DNA of 64,000 nt from Arthrobacter dokdonellae (GTDB lineage: Bacteria > Actinomycetota > Actinomycetes > Actinomycetales > Micrococcaceae). The number at the start of each line of letters is the position of its first letter. Position 1 is the stretch's first letter. A model generated the notes under the pieces. It made no database searches and was not told the DNA's origin. It worked only from the letters and a program-made list of their open reading frames with translations. The stretch lies in the NCBI RefSeq assembly GCF_003268655.1, contig NZ_CP029642.1, positions 744,001-808,000 on the forward strand. The letters are read 5' to 3'. Of this stretch, positions 28,321 through 33,839 are shown one piece after another. A program made the position numbers and the translations under genes.

Positions 28321-29073
28321 TTAGTTCCGGACCATGCTGAGCTTCCAGGTCTCCGGGCCGTTCTCCACATACTCGACGGCGAACTTGCCGGCCGAGCGCT
28401 GCTCGAGCTGTGCCAGCAGCGGCAGCGGGTTGTGGTTGGCGATCAGCAGGATTCCCTTGCCGGCCGACAGCCCCTCAAGGGCGCCAAAGATGGTGGCGTG
28501 GCGGATGGCGTGCGGGATGGCACGGGTGTCGAGTTCAGACAGGCCGGGTTCGTCGTGGCCGCCGCAGGCACAGCCGCCGGTTGCCGGCACGGCCGCGGGG
28601 GCCGCTTCAGCGGACCGCTCCGGGAGGATCCCGGACAAGGTGAGGGTCGGGTTCTGTGCCAAGACCGGCACCACCAACTCGGTGGCATGGTCCAGGAACG
28701 CGGCGGCAGCTTCCTGCAGCCGGGCACCTGCGTGAACAATCTGCACCGGCGTCTCCTGGGATTCCAGCGTCTTGGTGGCCTCGACCAGCCGCGCGTTGTC
28801 GCCGTTGGCCAGGGCGGCAACCACCGCGTCCGGGCCGGTGGCGCCGGAGAGCGCCTCGGCAAAGGCTGCGGCCAGCGGCTGCAGTTCCTTTTCGGCGAAG
28901 TCCACCAGCTTCAGCTGGTCTTCCGCGGCCAGTTCCCCGCCGGCCGCGGAAGCCGCGGAGACGAGGTTCCCGCCCAGCGTTCCCAGTGTTCCGCCCGCTT
29001 CGGCGAGGCGGGTTTTGACGTCTTCGAGCGCGGCAGCCTCGGCAGACGAGGAGGCAAGGACCAGATTGTTCAC
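28321..29073 (-). CDS. DUF2249 protein with helical N-terminal domain
   Basis: Cytoplasmic protein of 250 residues. The C-terminal 70 residues are a DUF2249 domain (LDTRAIPHAIRHATIFGAL, then LIANHNPLPLLAQLEQR). Before it is a GGCACGGHDEPG motif with two cysteines. The N-terminal 150 residues form an Ala-rich helical bundle in the place of the hemerythrin-like domain often fused to DUF2249, but the iron-binding histidine set is not evident. DUF2249 proteins are often near nitric-oxide and denitrification genes. Here it is divergent from the nitrite reductase unit. GTG start with GAAGGG 9 bases upstream. Confidence 0.75.
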   Translation of the reverse strand: MNNLVLASSSAEAAALEDVKTRLAEAGGTLGTLGGNLVSAASAAGGELAAEDQLKLVDFAEKELQPLAAAFAEALSGATGPDAVVAALANGDNARLVEATKTLESQETPVQIVHAGARLQEAAAAFLDHATELVVPVLAQNPTLTLSGILPERSAEAAPAAVPATGGCACGGHDEPGLSELDTRAIPHAIRHATIFGALEGLSAGKGILLIANHNPLPLLAQLEQRSAGKFAVEYVENGPETWKLSMVRN

Positions 29074-29115
29074 GGGGGACGACCCTTCTTGGTGGAGCGA
29101 ATGGAGATTGTGGAC

Positions 29116-29137
29116 TTATATTACTACAATAAATTCC
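29116..29137. promoter_or_regulatory. Leaderless -10 box and imperfect palindrome in the nir control region
   Basis: TACAAT (29125-29130) ends 7 bases before the GTG at 29138. It lies inside TTATATTACTACAATAA (29116-29132), an imperfect palindrome matching itself at 12 of 16 non-central positions. The surrounding stretch is strongly AT-rich for this genome. It could be the site where the neighbouring regulator, or a nitric-oxide sensor, controls both divergent genes. Confidence 0.45.
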
Positions 29138-29857
29138 GTGGAAAATAATATTTCGGGACCACCGCTGCGCGGGCCCAGACCGGGCGGCACGGAGCCCGTC
29201 GCCCCAATGTCCAAGGCTCGCGCAGCGGTCCTCGAGCGGCTCCGCGGCTCGGGCGGACCGCTCACGGTGGACGCCTTGGCCGCCGAAACGGGCCAGCACG
29301 CGAACACGGTCCGTGAGCACCTGGATGCCTTGGTGGGCTCCGGCTTTGCCACAAGAACGACGGCGCCCCGTTCCGGGCGCGGGCGTCCGGCTTCCCTCTA
29401 CCTGCCTGCCCAGCCCGACCCGCGCCCGGCCGGGTACGCGGCCCTGGCCGCCGCACTCGCCCGCCACATTGCCTCCACGAGTGCGGACCCGGCGGCCGCC
29501 GGAGAACTCGCCGGCCGGCAGTGGGCCCGTGTCTTGGCTGGAGCGGGCCGGCCCACCGCCCCGAGCGCCGCGCCGAGCGCCGCACGTCGCCGCAGCTCGC
29601 GGCTCAACGTGGCCGCGTCGCTGCGGGAGGCCGGCTTCGGCATCGAAGGCAACGCCGACGCCACCGACTTCACGCTCACCACCTGCCCCATCCTGGCGGC
29701 GGCCCGGGAAAACCCTGATGTGGTCTGCGCCGTGCACCTGGGCCTCGTCAAGGGGCTGCTGGAAGGCACCGGCGTCCCGGAGGTCGGCGTGGAGCTCGTG
29801 CCCTTTGCCGCGCCCGGAATCTGCACGCTGCACCTACCGTCGGCTGCTGCCACGTGA
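29138..29857 (+). CDS. HTH regulator with Cys-containing C-terminal domain
   Basis: Predicted transcriptional regulator of 239 residues. A winged helix-turn-helix lies at about 25-85 (LTVDALAAETGQHANTVREHLDALV). The C-terminal domain has three cysteines, in LTTCPIL, DVVCAVHLG and GICTLHL, spaced in a way reminiscent of Fe-S regulators such as SufR. A metal or Fe-S sensor of nitric oxide or nitrite is therefore plausible but unproven. The GTG start is supported by the -10 box just upstream; an ATG at 29207 (MSKARAAV) is the alternative. The stop overlaps the NnrS-like gene start as GTGA. Confidence 0.72.
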   Translation: MENNISGPPLRGPRPGGTEPVAPMSKARAAVLERLRGSGGPLTVDALAAETGQHANTVREHLDALVGSGFATRTTAPRSGRGRPASLYLPAQPDPRPAGYAALAAALARHIASTSADPAAAGELAGRQWARVLAGAGRPTAPSAAPSAARRRSSRLNVAASLREAGFGIEGNADATDFTLTTCPILAAARENPDVVCAVHLGLVKGLLEGTGVPEVGVELVPFAAPGICTLHLPSAAAT

Positions 29858-31113
29858 GCGACCCCGGGCAGCCCGGCGCCCAGCAGGAAACCGAGGCGCG
29901 CGGACCCGGGAAGCCGGTGCCCTCCACGCCGCAGGTATCCAAGCGCCAAGTGTCCAAGGCGCAGGTGTCCAGGAAGCCCCTGTCCAGGAAGCCCCTGTCC
30001 AAGGCGGCGAGGGAACGGCGGGTCCGGACATTCCTGCGCCGGCCCGCCTTCAGAATGCTCTTCCTGCTGCCTGCCGGCGCCGCACTGCTGGTCGGCCTCA
30101 ATGCCGGGCTGCAGCTGCTTGGCGCCGACGCCCCACTGAAGCTGGACAGGTTCCCGGAGATCCACGGCATGCTGCTGGTCCTGTCCTTTGTGGGCACCGT
30201 GATCGCGCTGGAACGCACAGTGGCGTTGGGGAAGGCGGCCGGATACCTTTCCCCGGCGCTTCTGGGCGTCGCCGGCCTGTTCATGATCTCCCCGCTGCCC
30301 CTGCTGGTGGGCAAGCTGGTGCTGCTCGCCGGCACCATCGCCATGCTGTTGGTCTACGTCCCCCTGTGGCGGCGCCAGAGGGACAACGTGGTGTTGATCC
30401 AGGTTCTGGGCGGCGTGACGGCCGTCGGGGCGGCGGCCCTGTGGCTGCGCGTGCCCAACGTTGCCGTCCTGCTCCCGTTCCTCATCAGCTTTGTGGTCCT
30501 GACCATTGCCGGCGAACGGCTGGAGCTGGCCAGGATCGGCATCACCAGCCCACGCGCCGAGCCCATCCTGACCGCGCTGGCCTTCGGGATGACCATGGCC
30601 ACCGTCGCCACCTTGCTCTGGCCAGCCGCGGGCTACCCGCTCTTTGGGCTGTCGCTGCTGGCCATGGTCGCCTGGCTGGCGGGCTTCGACGCCGCCCGCA
30701 AGACCATCCGAGGCCAGGGCCTGCCGCGCTACATCGCCGCGTGCCTGCTGGCGGGCTATGGCTGGCTGGCGATTGCCGGCGTCGTGCTGGCGCTGCACGA
30801 CACCACGCTGACGGGTGCCTCCTACGACGTCGTGCTGCACTCGGTGTTCCTCGGCTTCACCCTTTCCATGATCATGGCCCATGCGCCCGTGATCCTGCCC
30901 GCCGTGCTGCGCAAGCCGCTGCCCTACACCGAGCTGTTCTGGGTGCCGGCGGTGCTGCTGCACCTGTCGCTGCTGTTGCGCCTCGGCCTGGGCGACGCCG
31001 CCGGCATCCAGGGCGCGTGGGTCGCCGGCGGTGTGCTCAATGTCATTTCCATCCTGCTCTTTGCCGTCATGGCATTCTGGCAGGCCACCCATCCACCGAA
31101 GGTCGCTGCGTGA
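29854..31113 (+). CDS. NnrS-like membrane protein
   Basis: Polytopic membrane protein of 419 residues with about ten to twelve hydrophobic spans after a charged 50-residue N-terminus. Conserved histidines typical of the NnrS group appear in FPEIHGML, VVLHSVFLGF and MIMAHAPVILPAVL. NnrS is a haem- and copper-containing protein that protects against nitric-oxide stress in denitrifiers. It overlaps both neighbours by four bases, so it is made with the nitrite reductase, whose product is nitric oxide. The N-terminus carries five 5-residue repeats (see 29935-30009). Confidence 0.75.
   Translation: MSDPGQPGAQQETEARGPGKPVPSTPQVSKRQVSKAQVSRKPLSRKPLSKAARERRVRTFLRRPAFRMLFLLPAGAALLVGLNAGLQLLGADAPLKLDRFPEIHGMLLVLSFVGTVIALERTVALGKAAGYLSPALLGVAGLFMISPLPLLVGKLVLLAGTIAMLLVYVPLWRRQRDNVVLIQVLGGVTAVGAAALWLRVPNVAVLLPFLISFVVLTIAGERLELARIGITSPRAEPILTALAFGMTMATVATLLWPAAGYPLFGLSLLAMVAWLAGFDAARKTIRGQGLPRYIAACLLAGYGWLAIAGVVLALHDTTLTGASYDVVLHSVFLGFTLSMIMAHAPVILPAVLRKPLPYTELFWVPAVLLHLSLLLRLGLGDAAGIQGAWVAGGVLNVISILLFAVMAFWQATHPPKVAA
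29935..30009 (+). repeat. Five 15-base tandem repeats inside the NnrS-like gene
   Basis: Units encode VSKRQ, VSKAQ, VSRKP, LSRKP and LSKAA. Two neighbouring 15-base units (TGTCCAGGAAGCCCC) are identical, indicating recent slippage. The result is a strongly basic cytoplasmic tail before the first membrane span. Confidence 0.85.
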
Positions 31114-33839
31114 ACATCAACCTGACCCCGCCCGGGAAGCCCGCATCCCCGCAGGGCCCCGGCGGGATGAGCCGGGCCGGCTGGCATCTGCGCGCGAACG
31201 CCCCGGCCGTGGCGTGGCTGGTGGCGCTGGTGGTGGTGGTCCTGATCCACCGCAACGTGCCGGACTCGGGCTGGCTCATGGTGCACCTGCTGTTCCTGGG
31301 CGCCATCACCAACTCCATCCTCGTGTGGAGCTGGCACTTTGCCCAGGCGCTGCTGCGCGGTCCCACCCCGGGCTCCCGCGGCATGGCATGGCGGCTGGCG
31401 CTCCTCAACGTGGCCGTGCTGGCCGTGGTGGTGTCCATGACGGCCGACATCTGGCTGCTGACACTGATGGGCAGCATCCTGGTCGGAGCCGTGGTGGCGG
31501 CGCACGCCGTGGTGCTGGGACTGCGCGCCCGCAAGGCCCTGCCGTCGCGCTTTGGCGCCACTGTCTGGTACTACGTTGCCGCCTGCCTTCTGCTGCCCGT
31601 GGGCGCCGGGGTGGGTGCAGCGCTTGCCTCCGGGCTGACCGGTGAGGCGCACGCGAGGCTGCTGCTGGTCCACCTGTCCGTCAACGTGCTGGGCTTTGTT
31701 GGCCTGACGGTCCTTGGCACGCTGATGACGTTGCTGCCCACCATGCTGCGCACCCGCGTCGCCGGCGGCGCCGATTCGACGGCCCGCCACGGCATCTTTC
31801 CGCTGCTGGCCGGGGTGGTCCTGACCGCCGCCGGGGCCGCCGCGGGCGTCATGTTCCTGTGCACGGTGGGCCTGCTGGCCTATCTCGGCGGTGTCGTGTA
31901 CGTGTGCATTCCGCTGGCGAAGGCCGTCCGGGGCAAGCCGCCGGTGAACTTTCCGCCGCTGTCCGCGATCGCCGCCTTGGCGTGGCTGGCGGTCTCGCTC
32001 GTGTGGCTGGCCGGACTGACGGCAACCTCCGGATCGTGGACGGCGCTGCACCGTGGCATCGAGTCCGTGGCCCCGGTGCTGGCGGCGGGCTTTGCCGCAC
32101 AGGTGCTCGGCGCGGCGCTGAGCTACCTGGTGCCGGTGGTCCTGGGCGGCGGTCCGGCCCGGGTCAGGCAGCGCACCGCCATCCTGGACAAGGCCGCCGT
32201 GTTCCGCGTGGTCCTGACCAACCTTGCGCTCGTGGCTTCCCTGCTGCCCGTGCCCAGCCTGGTCCGCGTGGGCACCACCTTCCTGGTCCTGGCCGGGCTG
32301 GCCTGGTTCCTGCCGCTGCTGGGCATGGCCCTGCTCGCGAAGCCCCGGGAAACCACGACGCCGGGAGCCCCGGCCGCCCGGCCCGCTGCGGGCGCCGTCG
32401 TCGCCGCCCGGCCCGCTGCGGGCGCCGTCCCGGCGGGGCCATCGGGGGCGGGTGCCCCCTGGAACCCTGCCCCGGGCAGGAGGTGGGGGATGGCGGCCAC
32501 GGGACTGGCCGTCGTCGTGCTGGTGGTGGTGGCGGGCATCGTGGCTGATCCGTCCGTCCTGCCCGGCCTCAGCCAGGCCGGTGCGCAGTCGGCCGTTGCG
32601 GCCACGGGAAAGACCACCACGGTGGAGATGACCATGAAGAACATGCGCTTCCAGCCGGACAAGGTGGACGTGCCGGTGGGGAACAGGCTGGTCATCCATG
32701 TCACAAACGTGGACAGCATGGTGCACGATCTCGTCACCGCCGGCGGAGCGGAGTCCGGTCGCCTGTATCCAGGGGAGAAAGCCACCGTGGACGCGGGGGT
32801 GATCGGCGCCGACATGGACGGCTGGTGCAGCATTGTGGGGCACCGGCAGCAGGGCATGGTCTTCAGCATTGTCGCCACGGGCCCTGCGCCGGCCCCGACT
32901 GCCCGCGCCATGCCCGGCATGCCGGGCATGGACCACGGGGCTGCCGCCGGGTCCAGTGCCGCACCGCAGCTGGACTTCATGAAGCAGCCCGCCGCCGGCT
33001 TCACCGCGCACAACGCCGCGATCCCGCCGCTGCCCACCGGCACGGTGCACAACGTCACCCTGAAGGTCACGGACCAGCTGACGGAGGTGGCACCGGGCGT
33101 GAAGCAAACCCTGTGGACCTACAACGGCACCGCCCCCGGGCCCACGCTGCGCGGCAGGATCGGCGACAAGTTCAAGGTCACGCTCATCAATGACGCCACG
33201 ATGGGCCACTCGATCGACTTCCACGCAGGCACGCTTGCCCCCGACGTGCCGATGCGCACCGTCAATCCCGGCGAATCGCTGACCTACACGTTCACCGCCA
33301 CACGCGCCGGAATTTGGCTGTACCACTGCAGCACCATGCCCATGAGCCAGCACATCGCGAACGGCATGTTTGGCGCGGTGATCATCGACCCGCCCAACCT
33401 GCCCAAGGTGGACAAGGAGTACGTCCTCATCCAGTCCGAGCTGTACCTGGGCCCGCAGGGAGGCGTGGCGGACCTGGCCAAAATCCAGGCCGACAAGCCG
33501 GACGCCGTGGTGTTCAACGGCTACGCCAACCAGTATAGTTTCCGCCCGCTGCCCGCGAAGGTGGGCGGGAAGGTGCGCATCTGGGTGCTCGACGCCGGAC
33601 CCGACCGGGCGACGTCGTTCCACGTGGTGGGGGGCCAGTTCAGCACGGTGTGGAGCGAAGGCCGCTACCTGCTGGACGGTTCGGACCCTTCCGCCGGGTC
33701 GCAGGCGCTGGCGCTGGCCCCCGCGCAGGGCGGCTTCGTGGAGCTGACGTTCCCGCAGGCCGGCAGCTACCCGTTCGTTTCGCACTACATGGTCGACGCC
33801 GAACGGGGCGCCCACGGCACCTTCAAGGTGGCCGGCTGA
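31110..33839 (+). CDS. nirK: Copper nitrite reductase fused to membrane and cupredoxin domains
   Basis: Predicted to reduce nitrite to nitric oxide outside the membrane, 909 residues. Residues 30-410 hold about ten to eleven membrane spans with histidines in WLMVHLLFLG, VWSWHFAQ and LLLVHLSVNV. A Pro/Ala repeat linker and one more span (461-478) follow. A cupredoxin (500-590) has type 1 copper ligands H539, C573, H578 and M583. The NirK part (640-909) has H700, D703, H705, H739, C740, H748, M753, the catalytic H838, and H892. GTG start overlaps the NnrS-like stop. Classical NirK is periplasmic and about 350 residues. Confidence 0.82.
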   Translation: MNINLTPPGKPASPQGPGGMSRAGWHLRANAPAVAWLVALVVVVLIHRNVPDSGWLMVHLLFLGAITNSILVWSWHFAQALLRGPTPGSRGMAWRLALLNVAVLAVVVSMTADIWLLTLMGSILVGAVVAAHAVVLGLRARKALPSRFGATVWYYVAACLLLPVGAGVGAALASGLTGEAHARLLLVHLSVNVLGFVGLTVLGTLMTLLPTMLRTRVAGGADSTARHGIFPLLAGVVLTAAGAAAGVMFLCTVGLLAYLGGVVYVCIPLAKAVRGKPPVNFPPLSAIAALAWLAVSLVWLAGLTATSGSWTALHRGIESVAPVLAAGFAAQVLGAALSYLVPVVLGGGPARVRQRTAILDKAAVFRVVLTNLALVASLLPVPSLVRVGTTFLVLAGLAWFLPLLGMALLAKPRETTTPGAPAARPAAGAVVAARPAAGAVPAGPSGAGAPWNPAPGRRWGMAATGLAVVVLVVVAGIVADPSVLPGLSQAGAQSAVAATGKTTTVEMTMKNMRFQPDKVDVPVGNRLVIHVTNVDSMVHDLVTAGGAESGRLYPGEKATVDAGVIGADMDGWCSIVGHRQQGMVFSIVATGPAPAPTARAMPGMPGMDHGAAAGSSAAPQLDFMKQPAAGFTAHNAAIPPLPTGTVHNVTLKVTDQLTEVAPGVKQTLWTYNGTAPGPTLRGRIGDKFKVTLINDATMGHSIDFHAGTLAPDVPMRTVNPGESLTYTFTATRAGIWLYHCSTMPMSQHIANGMFGAVIIDPPNLPKVDKEYVLIQSELYLGPQGGVADLAKIQADKPDAVVFNGYANQYSFRPLPAKVGGKVRIWVLDAGPDRATSFHVVGGQFSTVWSEGRYLLDGSDPSAGSQALALAPAQGGFVELTFPQAGSYPFVSHYMVDAERGAHGTFKVAG
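32373..32429 (+). repeat. Tandem 30-base repeat coding the nirK linker
   Basis: A 27-base sequence recurs exactly 30 bases later (32373-32399 and 32403-32429). It encodes ARPAAGAV twice, in the flexible linker between the polytopic domain and the anchor of the cupredoxin. Confidence 0.85.

Follow-up and report, generated by a model that had tools for sequence, protein, structure and literature searches.

The window analysed here is a stretch of 64,000 nucleotides from the soil bacterium Arthrobacter dokdonellae (contig NZ_CP029642.1, positions 744,001 to 808,000 of the forward strand). On its plus strand, an open reading frame with a GTG start (31110..33839) encodes a protein of 909 residues whose single chain joins a polytopic membrane domain to a cupredoxin of type 1 and to a full copper nitrite reductase (NirK). 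The open frame, the copper ligand sets and the aligned relatives agree on this architecture, which the initial annotation had recognised correctly, including the cupredoxin built into the chain N-terminally of NirK. The membrane domain, delimited there at about residues 30-410, is polytopic as claimed and can be refined to residues 22-409 (31173..32336) with 12 helices, for which the fold of heme-copper oxidase subunit I is predicted. A separate membrane helix outside that claim (residues 455-479, 32472..32546), visible in the model and as a hydropathy peak, lies between it and the cupredoxin domain, which comprises about residues 491-594 (32580..32891) and carries H539, C573, H578 and M583. 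The NirK domain with all type 1 (T1) and type 2 (T2) copper ligands and catalytic residues follows at residues 634-909 (33009..33836), all of these features being encoded on the plus strand. The residue numbers given before are correct throughout, also for the membrane histidines in WLMVHLLFLG (H59), VWSWHFAQ (H76) and LLLVHLSVNV (H188).

A Pfam scan of the fusion detected Cupredoxin_1 at residues 497-561 and Cu-oxidase_3 at 654-763. In a PDB sequence search, the NirK of Geobacillus was the top match (fusion residues 628-907); that of Hyphomicrobium, a cupredoxin-NirK enzyme, aligned to residues 521-907. The fusion has the two-cupredoxin fold of NirK, preceded by a type 1 cupredoxin with full ligands as in the Hyphomicrobium type. 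From established knowledge we take H700, C740, H748 and M753 to be the T1 ligands, H705, H739 and H892 those of T2, and D703 and H838 to be the catalytic residues. In an alignment of 45 fusions, out of 121 collected by then, H47, H59, H76, H188, H539, C573, H578, M583, H700, D703, H705, H739, C740, H748, H838 and H892 show no variation, and conservation of M753 reaches at least 90%. With the NCBIfam equivalog TIGR02376 (a model, not an enzyme class) the fusion scored 166.6 bits, under the curated cut-off of 296.3 bits, which was passed in only 4 of the 198 actinobacterial genomes of our survey sample. The predicted model of the full chain has a predicted template modelling score (pTM) of 0.64, with a predicted local distance difference test (pLDDT) below 50 at residues 420-446 and 597-612, and the mutual placement of the parts in it is uncertain. 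In a fold search with the full-length model, the entries listed were those of NirK and related copper oxidases, which are uninformative about the membrane part.

Fold comparison of the membrane domain alone, carried out on the predicted structure, settles its assignment at the level of the model: the domain has the 12-helix fold of heme-copper oxidase subunit I, on the side of the cbb3 oxidases and nitric oxide (NO) reductases. The search of this domain against protein families suggested by the initial annotation gave no match, and it was the predicted structure that yielded the oxidase fold. Pfam and NCBIfam scans of the fusion found nothing inside the membrane domain, the gathering score of Pfam COX1 was not reached by the fusion protein, a family profile of the domain had no match among PDB sequences even at E<=10, and a profile comparison with a qNOR gave no match. 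Sub-threshold matches of its relatives to COX1 (2 of 28 and 3 of 114) and to ccoN (2 of 28) are a lead only and prove nothing alone. NnrS (PF05940), a membrane protein containing heme and copper, resembles the domain in being polytopic and associated with nitrogen-oxide genes, yet its profile found no match at E<=0.1 in the 114 relatives. An NnrS match in one of 38 relatives was dropped, as on reading it fell in a GGDEF-like protein.

The conservation of residues within the membrane was counted over the 114 sequences, which include unfused relatives of the domain. H59 and H188 are invariant in all of them, while H76 is kept in 100, so that the claim of conserved membrane histidines holds fully for the first two and less so for the third. 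N192 (103/114), Q331 (112/114) and N100 (109/114) are also kept, and H47 is found in just 20 of 114 once unfused relatives are counted. When the helices are equated with those of oxidases and qNOR by their order, H59 and H188 fall on helices II and VI, respectively, the helices which bear ligands in heme-copper oxidases; the helix II and helix VI histidines of subunit I are thus present, with an equivalence given by helix order only. The qNOR used for comparison carries H331, H487, H538-H539 and H630/H632, which we take to be placed on helices II, VI, VII and X, and the spacing H188-x3-N192 equals that of HxxxE on its helix VI. Some histidine within residues 308-330 occurs in 21 of 114 sequences. 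Extra histidines were observed at residue columns 164 (57/114) and 190 (59/114) on helices V and VI, the latter giving a helix VI motif AHLHxNVLGW that is reminiscent of the HxH found on helix X of oxidases. If the cupredoxin is located outside the cell, the helix count places the N-terminus inside and would bring H59 as well as H188 close to the outer membrane face, on the side of the cupredoxin.

A genomic link between the membrane domain and NirK was found in the survey sample. The domain is present in 31 of the 198 genomes (genomes are denoted by G and loci by L in the following). Six of these hold domain and NirK in a single frame (the host G000, G023, G038, G062, G139 and G182); among the other 25, there are 24 with open frames of 410-638 residues and G127 with a short partial match. 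The gene of G073 (L133:7849-9156), one of those 24, is broken by an internal stop codon. Full-length NirK, defined by TIGR02376 at E<=1e-40 (a threshold chosen after the list was seen), occurs in 28 genomes: 24 have both, four NirK only (G003, G078, G091, G111), seven the domain only and 163 neither (Fisher 9e-21, with p-values inflated by shared ancestry). Outside the host's class the corresponding counts are 18, 4, 7 and 152, and when only genomes matching COX1 at E<=1 are counted (118), they are 23, 4, 7 and 84. With the looser threshold of E<=1e-15, which includes partial copper-oxidase matches, they are 28, 27 (NirK-like only), 3 and 140. Despite the inflation by shared ancestry, the pattern is also visible inside family f13, where the genomes listed have both genes (G051, G075, G097, G108), the domain only (G009) or neither the domain nor full-length NirK (G024, G063, G194). 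The unfused gene adjoins NirK or is one gene off in five genomes (G025, G051, G075, G097, G172). In L115 and L126, genes of the copper-oxidase type close to the domain look like NirK, but they were not counted, as the NirK of those genomes is located on other contigs. Ten neighbours of other unfused copies, chosen by eye, were scanned for families; one had none, and the remaining nine encode an MFS protein and a response regulator (L112), a cupredoxin (L116), molybdopterin oxidoreductases (L117, L118), helix-turn-helix (HTH) regulators (L118, L132), Rrf2 (L119) and a hemerythrin (L132).

Among 8000 scored candidates, 1015 proteins match the fusion at E<=1e-3, a number which excludes chance as the source of the fusion. 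The 120 of these matches that were listed have 859-946 residues except for one of 789, and all with an organism name are actinobacterial. At 75 of 81 loci, namely the window's own locus and the 80 best among 398 that were confirmed, membrane domain, cupredoxin and NirK lie within one open frame. Two of the remaining six end at the locus edge (L048, L077), three carry the membrane domain only (L020, L024, L080), and L038 has the membrane domain with the cupredoxin. The proteins P0122 (637 residues) and P0286 (539 residues), named cupredoxin domain-containing, likewise consist of membrane domain and cupredoxin without NirK. This module may exist independently of NirK, or such copies may be broken. 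The records of L010 (Sporosarcina beigongshangi) and L055 (Bacillus sp. AZ43) hold a highly similar actinobacterial locus and are probably mislabelled or contaminated. In a tree of 62 rows, all 37 fused sequences and four unfused ones form a clade of 41 rows (support 99/94); the label fused or unfused requires five changes on this tree, whose root is a midpoint only. One ancient fusion followed by later losses would be the simplest reading of this phylogeny, though not a proven one.

The fusion gene is preceded on the plus strand by a gene for a polytopic membrane protein of 419 residues without a Pfam family, named UP here (29854..31113), and by a regulator-like gene of 239 residues (29138..29857) with a GTG start at 29138 and an alternative ATG start at 29207. 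From its sequence and from Pfam matches of like-placed genes in L118 and L132, the latter appears to be of HTH type. Regulator-like gene, UP and fusion successively overlap by 4 nt (GTGA), which suggests that they are translationally coupled. On the minus strand, a divergent gene (28321..29073) encodes a DUF2249 protein of 250 residues (PF10006, E 1.4e-22). The region between DUF2249 and the regulator contains a conserved promoter-like element on the plus strand (29115..29150, similar to TATATTACTACAATAAATTCCGTGGAAAATAA), in which GTGGAA is present in 14 of 14 and TACTAC in 12 of 14 retrieved sequences (the window and 13 of the 80 loci). Here, TACAAT at 29125, 7 nt ahead of the GTG at 29138, resembles the -10 region of a leaderless transcript.

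UP is found at full length in 68 of the 81 loci, and one more copy ends at the contig end (L070). As candidate paralogues, UP and the membrane domain obtained a profile probability of 20%. A homologue of UP without a Pfam family is encoded on pHG1 of Cupriavidus necator (277.8 bits, L182:25868-27160), near genes for hemerythrin, DUF2249, Rrf2, qNOR, YtfE and NorR, and this location ties UP to NO metabolism beyond the actinobacteria. The UP family looks like an undescribed group of NO-linked membrane proteins common to two phyla. Outside the host's class UP does not follow NirK: it occurs in 8 of the 198 genomes, of which four lack any NirK match and five have the membrane domain.

The host genome encodes NarG (1565.9 bits). 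Its sole COX1-family match is one oxidase-like gene, and hence no NorB was recognised. A search with PF13442 only, for class I cytochrome c, found one frame of 280 residues at about 5 kb from COX1.

We tentatively read the fusion as a copper nitrite reductase integral to the membrane, in which the N-terminal oxidase-fold domain serves as electron-entry module, most likely fed by menaquinol; the orientation and the cofactor are inferred here, as are the electron donor and the direction in which electrons flow. Nar would reduce nitrate to nitrite, and the fusion would then convert the nitrite to NO extracellularly. Electrons would enter the membrane domain at the outer membrane face, most likely from menaquinol, where a site near H59 of helix II and H188 of helix VI would house a cofactor or bind quinol. 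They would then pass via the tethered type 1 copper of the cupredoxin to the T1 and from there to the T2 copper of NirK. For the NirK of Bacillus azotoformans, the use of menaquinol, direct or not, has been proposed (PMC3475470), and in the Hyphomicrobium enzyme the N-terminal copper is reported to receive the electron first, though some 24 A separate it from the T1 copper of the core (PMC7201279). A more far-reaching form of this idea, possible but doubtful, is a self-contained quinol:nitrite reductase in actinobacteria: an oxidase fold stripped of the oxygen-reducing centre would oxidise quinol, possibly by means of a single heme held by helices II and VI in an arrangement foreign to oxidases, would feed cupredoxin and NirK in one chain and bypass cytochrome bcc, the unfused form being a multi-part complex in other actinobacterial classes.

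Several observations weigh against an electron-entry role. The HxH of helix X (heme ligands; region 305-345) occurs in 1 of 114 sequences and the HH of helix VII (second-metal ligands; region 214-247) in none, both matched by helix order. This precludes the low-spin heme pair that is usual in qNOR, and a heme cannot be assumed. The equivalence of residues to those of oxidases itself rests on this order and not on superposed side chains. Homology to oxidases at the sequence level is weak, the COX1 matches in 3 of 114 relatives comparing with 9 of 114 for the unrelated DUF3040; a profile comparison with 30 actinobacterial COX1 was not significant, and none of 10 unfused relatives scanned singly matched COX1. 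The domain occurs without full-length NirK in 7 of 31 genomes (G001, G009, G028, G124, G127, G135, G183), and the frame L038:2476-5136 stops after the cupredoxin. Two other cupredoxin-like frames of the host, of 154 and 179 residues (the latter below the cut-off), are possible donors. In Hyphomicrobium, a mutant of the N-terminal copper is more active than the wild type according to Decleyre et al. (PMC4770552), which speaks against a simple relay via this copper.

Electrons could also arrive from cytochrome bcc via the cupredoxin, and an actinobacterial study places NirK after bc1 (PMC6349771). The membrane domain might then mimic an oxidase and dock to cytochrome bcc in place of subunit I, with the cupredoxin in place of subunit II; bcc-bound cytochrome c would reduce the cupredoxin directly, NirK would serve the supercomplex as an alternative terminal reductase, with no redox cofactor needed in the domain. 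We regard this as rather unlikely, since taken alone it does not account for the retention of the intramembrane residues H59, H188, Q331 and N192 and since one genome (G086) holds domain and NirK but no COX1 match; menaquinol near H59/H188 is the first choice of donor, and docking to bcc the rival. The missing ligands led us to reject an active centre of the NO-reductase or oxidase kind. A relative of NO reductases without full catalysis might still bind, sense or transport the NO formed by NirK and so protect a cell without recognisable NorB, but we consider this improbable, as helix VII HH and helix X HxH of the known NO-reducing centre are absent and electron transfer accounts better for the link to the cupredoxin. 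The loss of most canonical ligands, and of parts of the fusion in some lineages (L020, L024, L038, L080), would fit a domain outside the electron flow, be it a relic anchor or an aid to copper loading and trimer assembly. Such a purely structural role is hardly probable either, given that intramembrane residues are strongly conserved, that the helix 455-479 could anchor the protein alone and that unfused copies are retained alongside NirK.

The initial annotation had set the fusion against soluble NirK, hinting at a new architecture. Such newness is not supported: the fusion is common in actinobacteria and was already described by Decleyre et al. Most actinobacterial NirK belong to one large clade (clade 3), reported as prevalent across nearly all biomes surveyed (PMC10999283), and their electrons have been assumed to arrive through bc1 (PMC6349771). 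Among open-access titles and abstract openings, we found none that names a fold for this membrane domain or mentions a NirK fusion fed by quinol, which is not proof of absence. The oxidase-like membrane part is a concrete clue to the electron feeding of such nitrite reductases, and recognition of the stripped oxidase fold points to the exact residues H59, H188 and Q331. Quinol-fed and bcc-fed nitrite reduction differ in the amount of energy conserved, and the answer would therefore alter the prediction of denitrification versus ammonification in these bacteria.

Compared with known systems, the NirK of Hyphomicrobium denitrificans (2dv6, 6tfd) differs from the fusion in that the matched chains have no membrane domain, and its two parts are placed differently from those of the fusion model (root-mean-square deviation 16.9). 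The cbb3 oxidase subunit CcoN (3mk7, 8smr) shows about 14-16% identity, its helix VII HH and helix X HxH being missing in the fusion domain. Turning to the NO reductases NorB (4xyd, 3o0r) and qNOR, the latter, unlike the fusion domain, retains its histidines (H331, H487, H538, H539, H630, H632) and itself reduces NO. If electrons do pass from the membrane domain to the cupredoxin, the oxidase fold would work in the reverse sense; in oxidases, subunit I is the recipient of electrons from a cupredoxin or cytochrome c. By its published description, a close likeness is the long NirK of the Propionibacterium acnes type, which has about 900 residues and the same order of a 400-residue transmembrane domain, cupredoxin and NirK on one chain (Decleyre 2016, PMC4770552). 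Its membrane domain is given as of unknown function in the accessible text of that report; in the protein from A. dokdonellae, we read it as a heme-copper oxidase fold.

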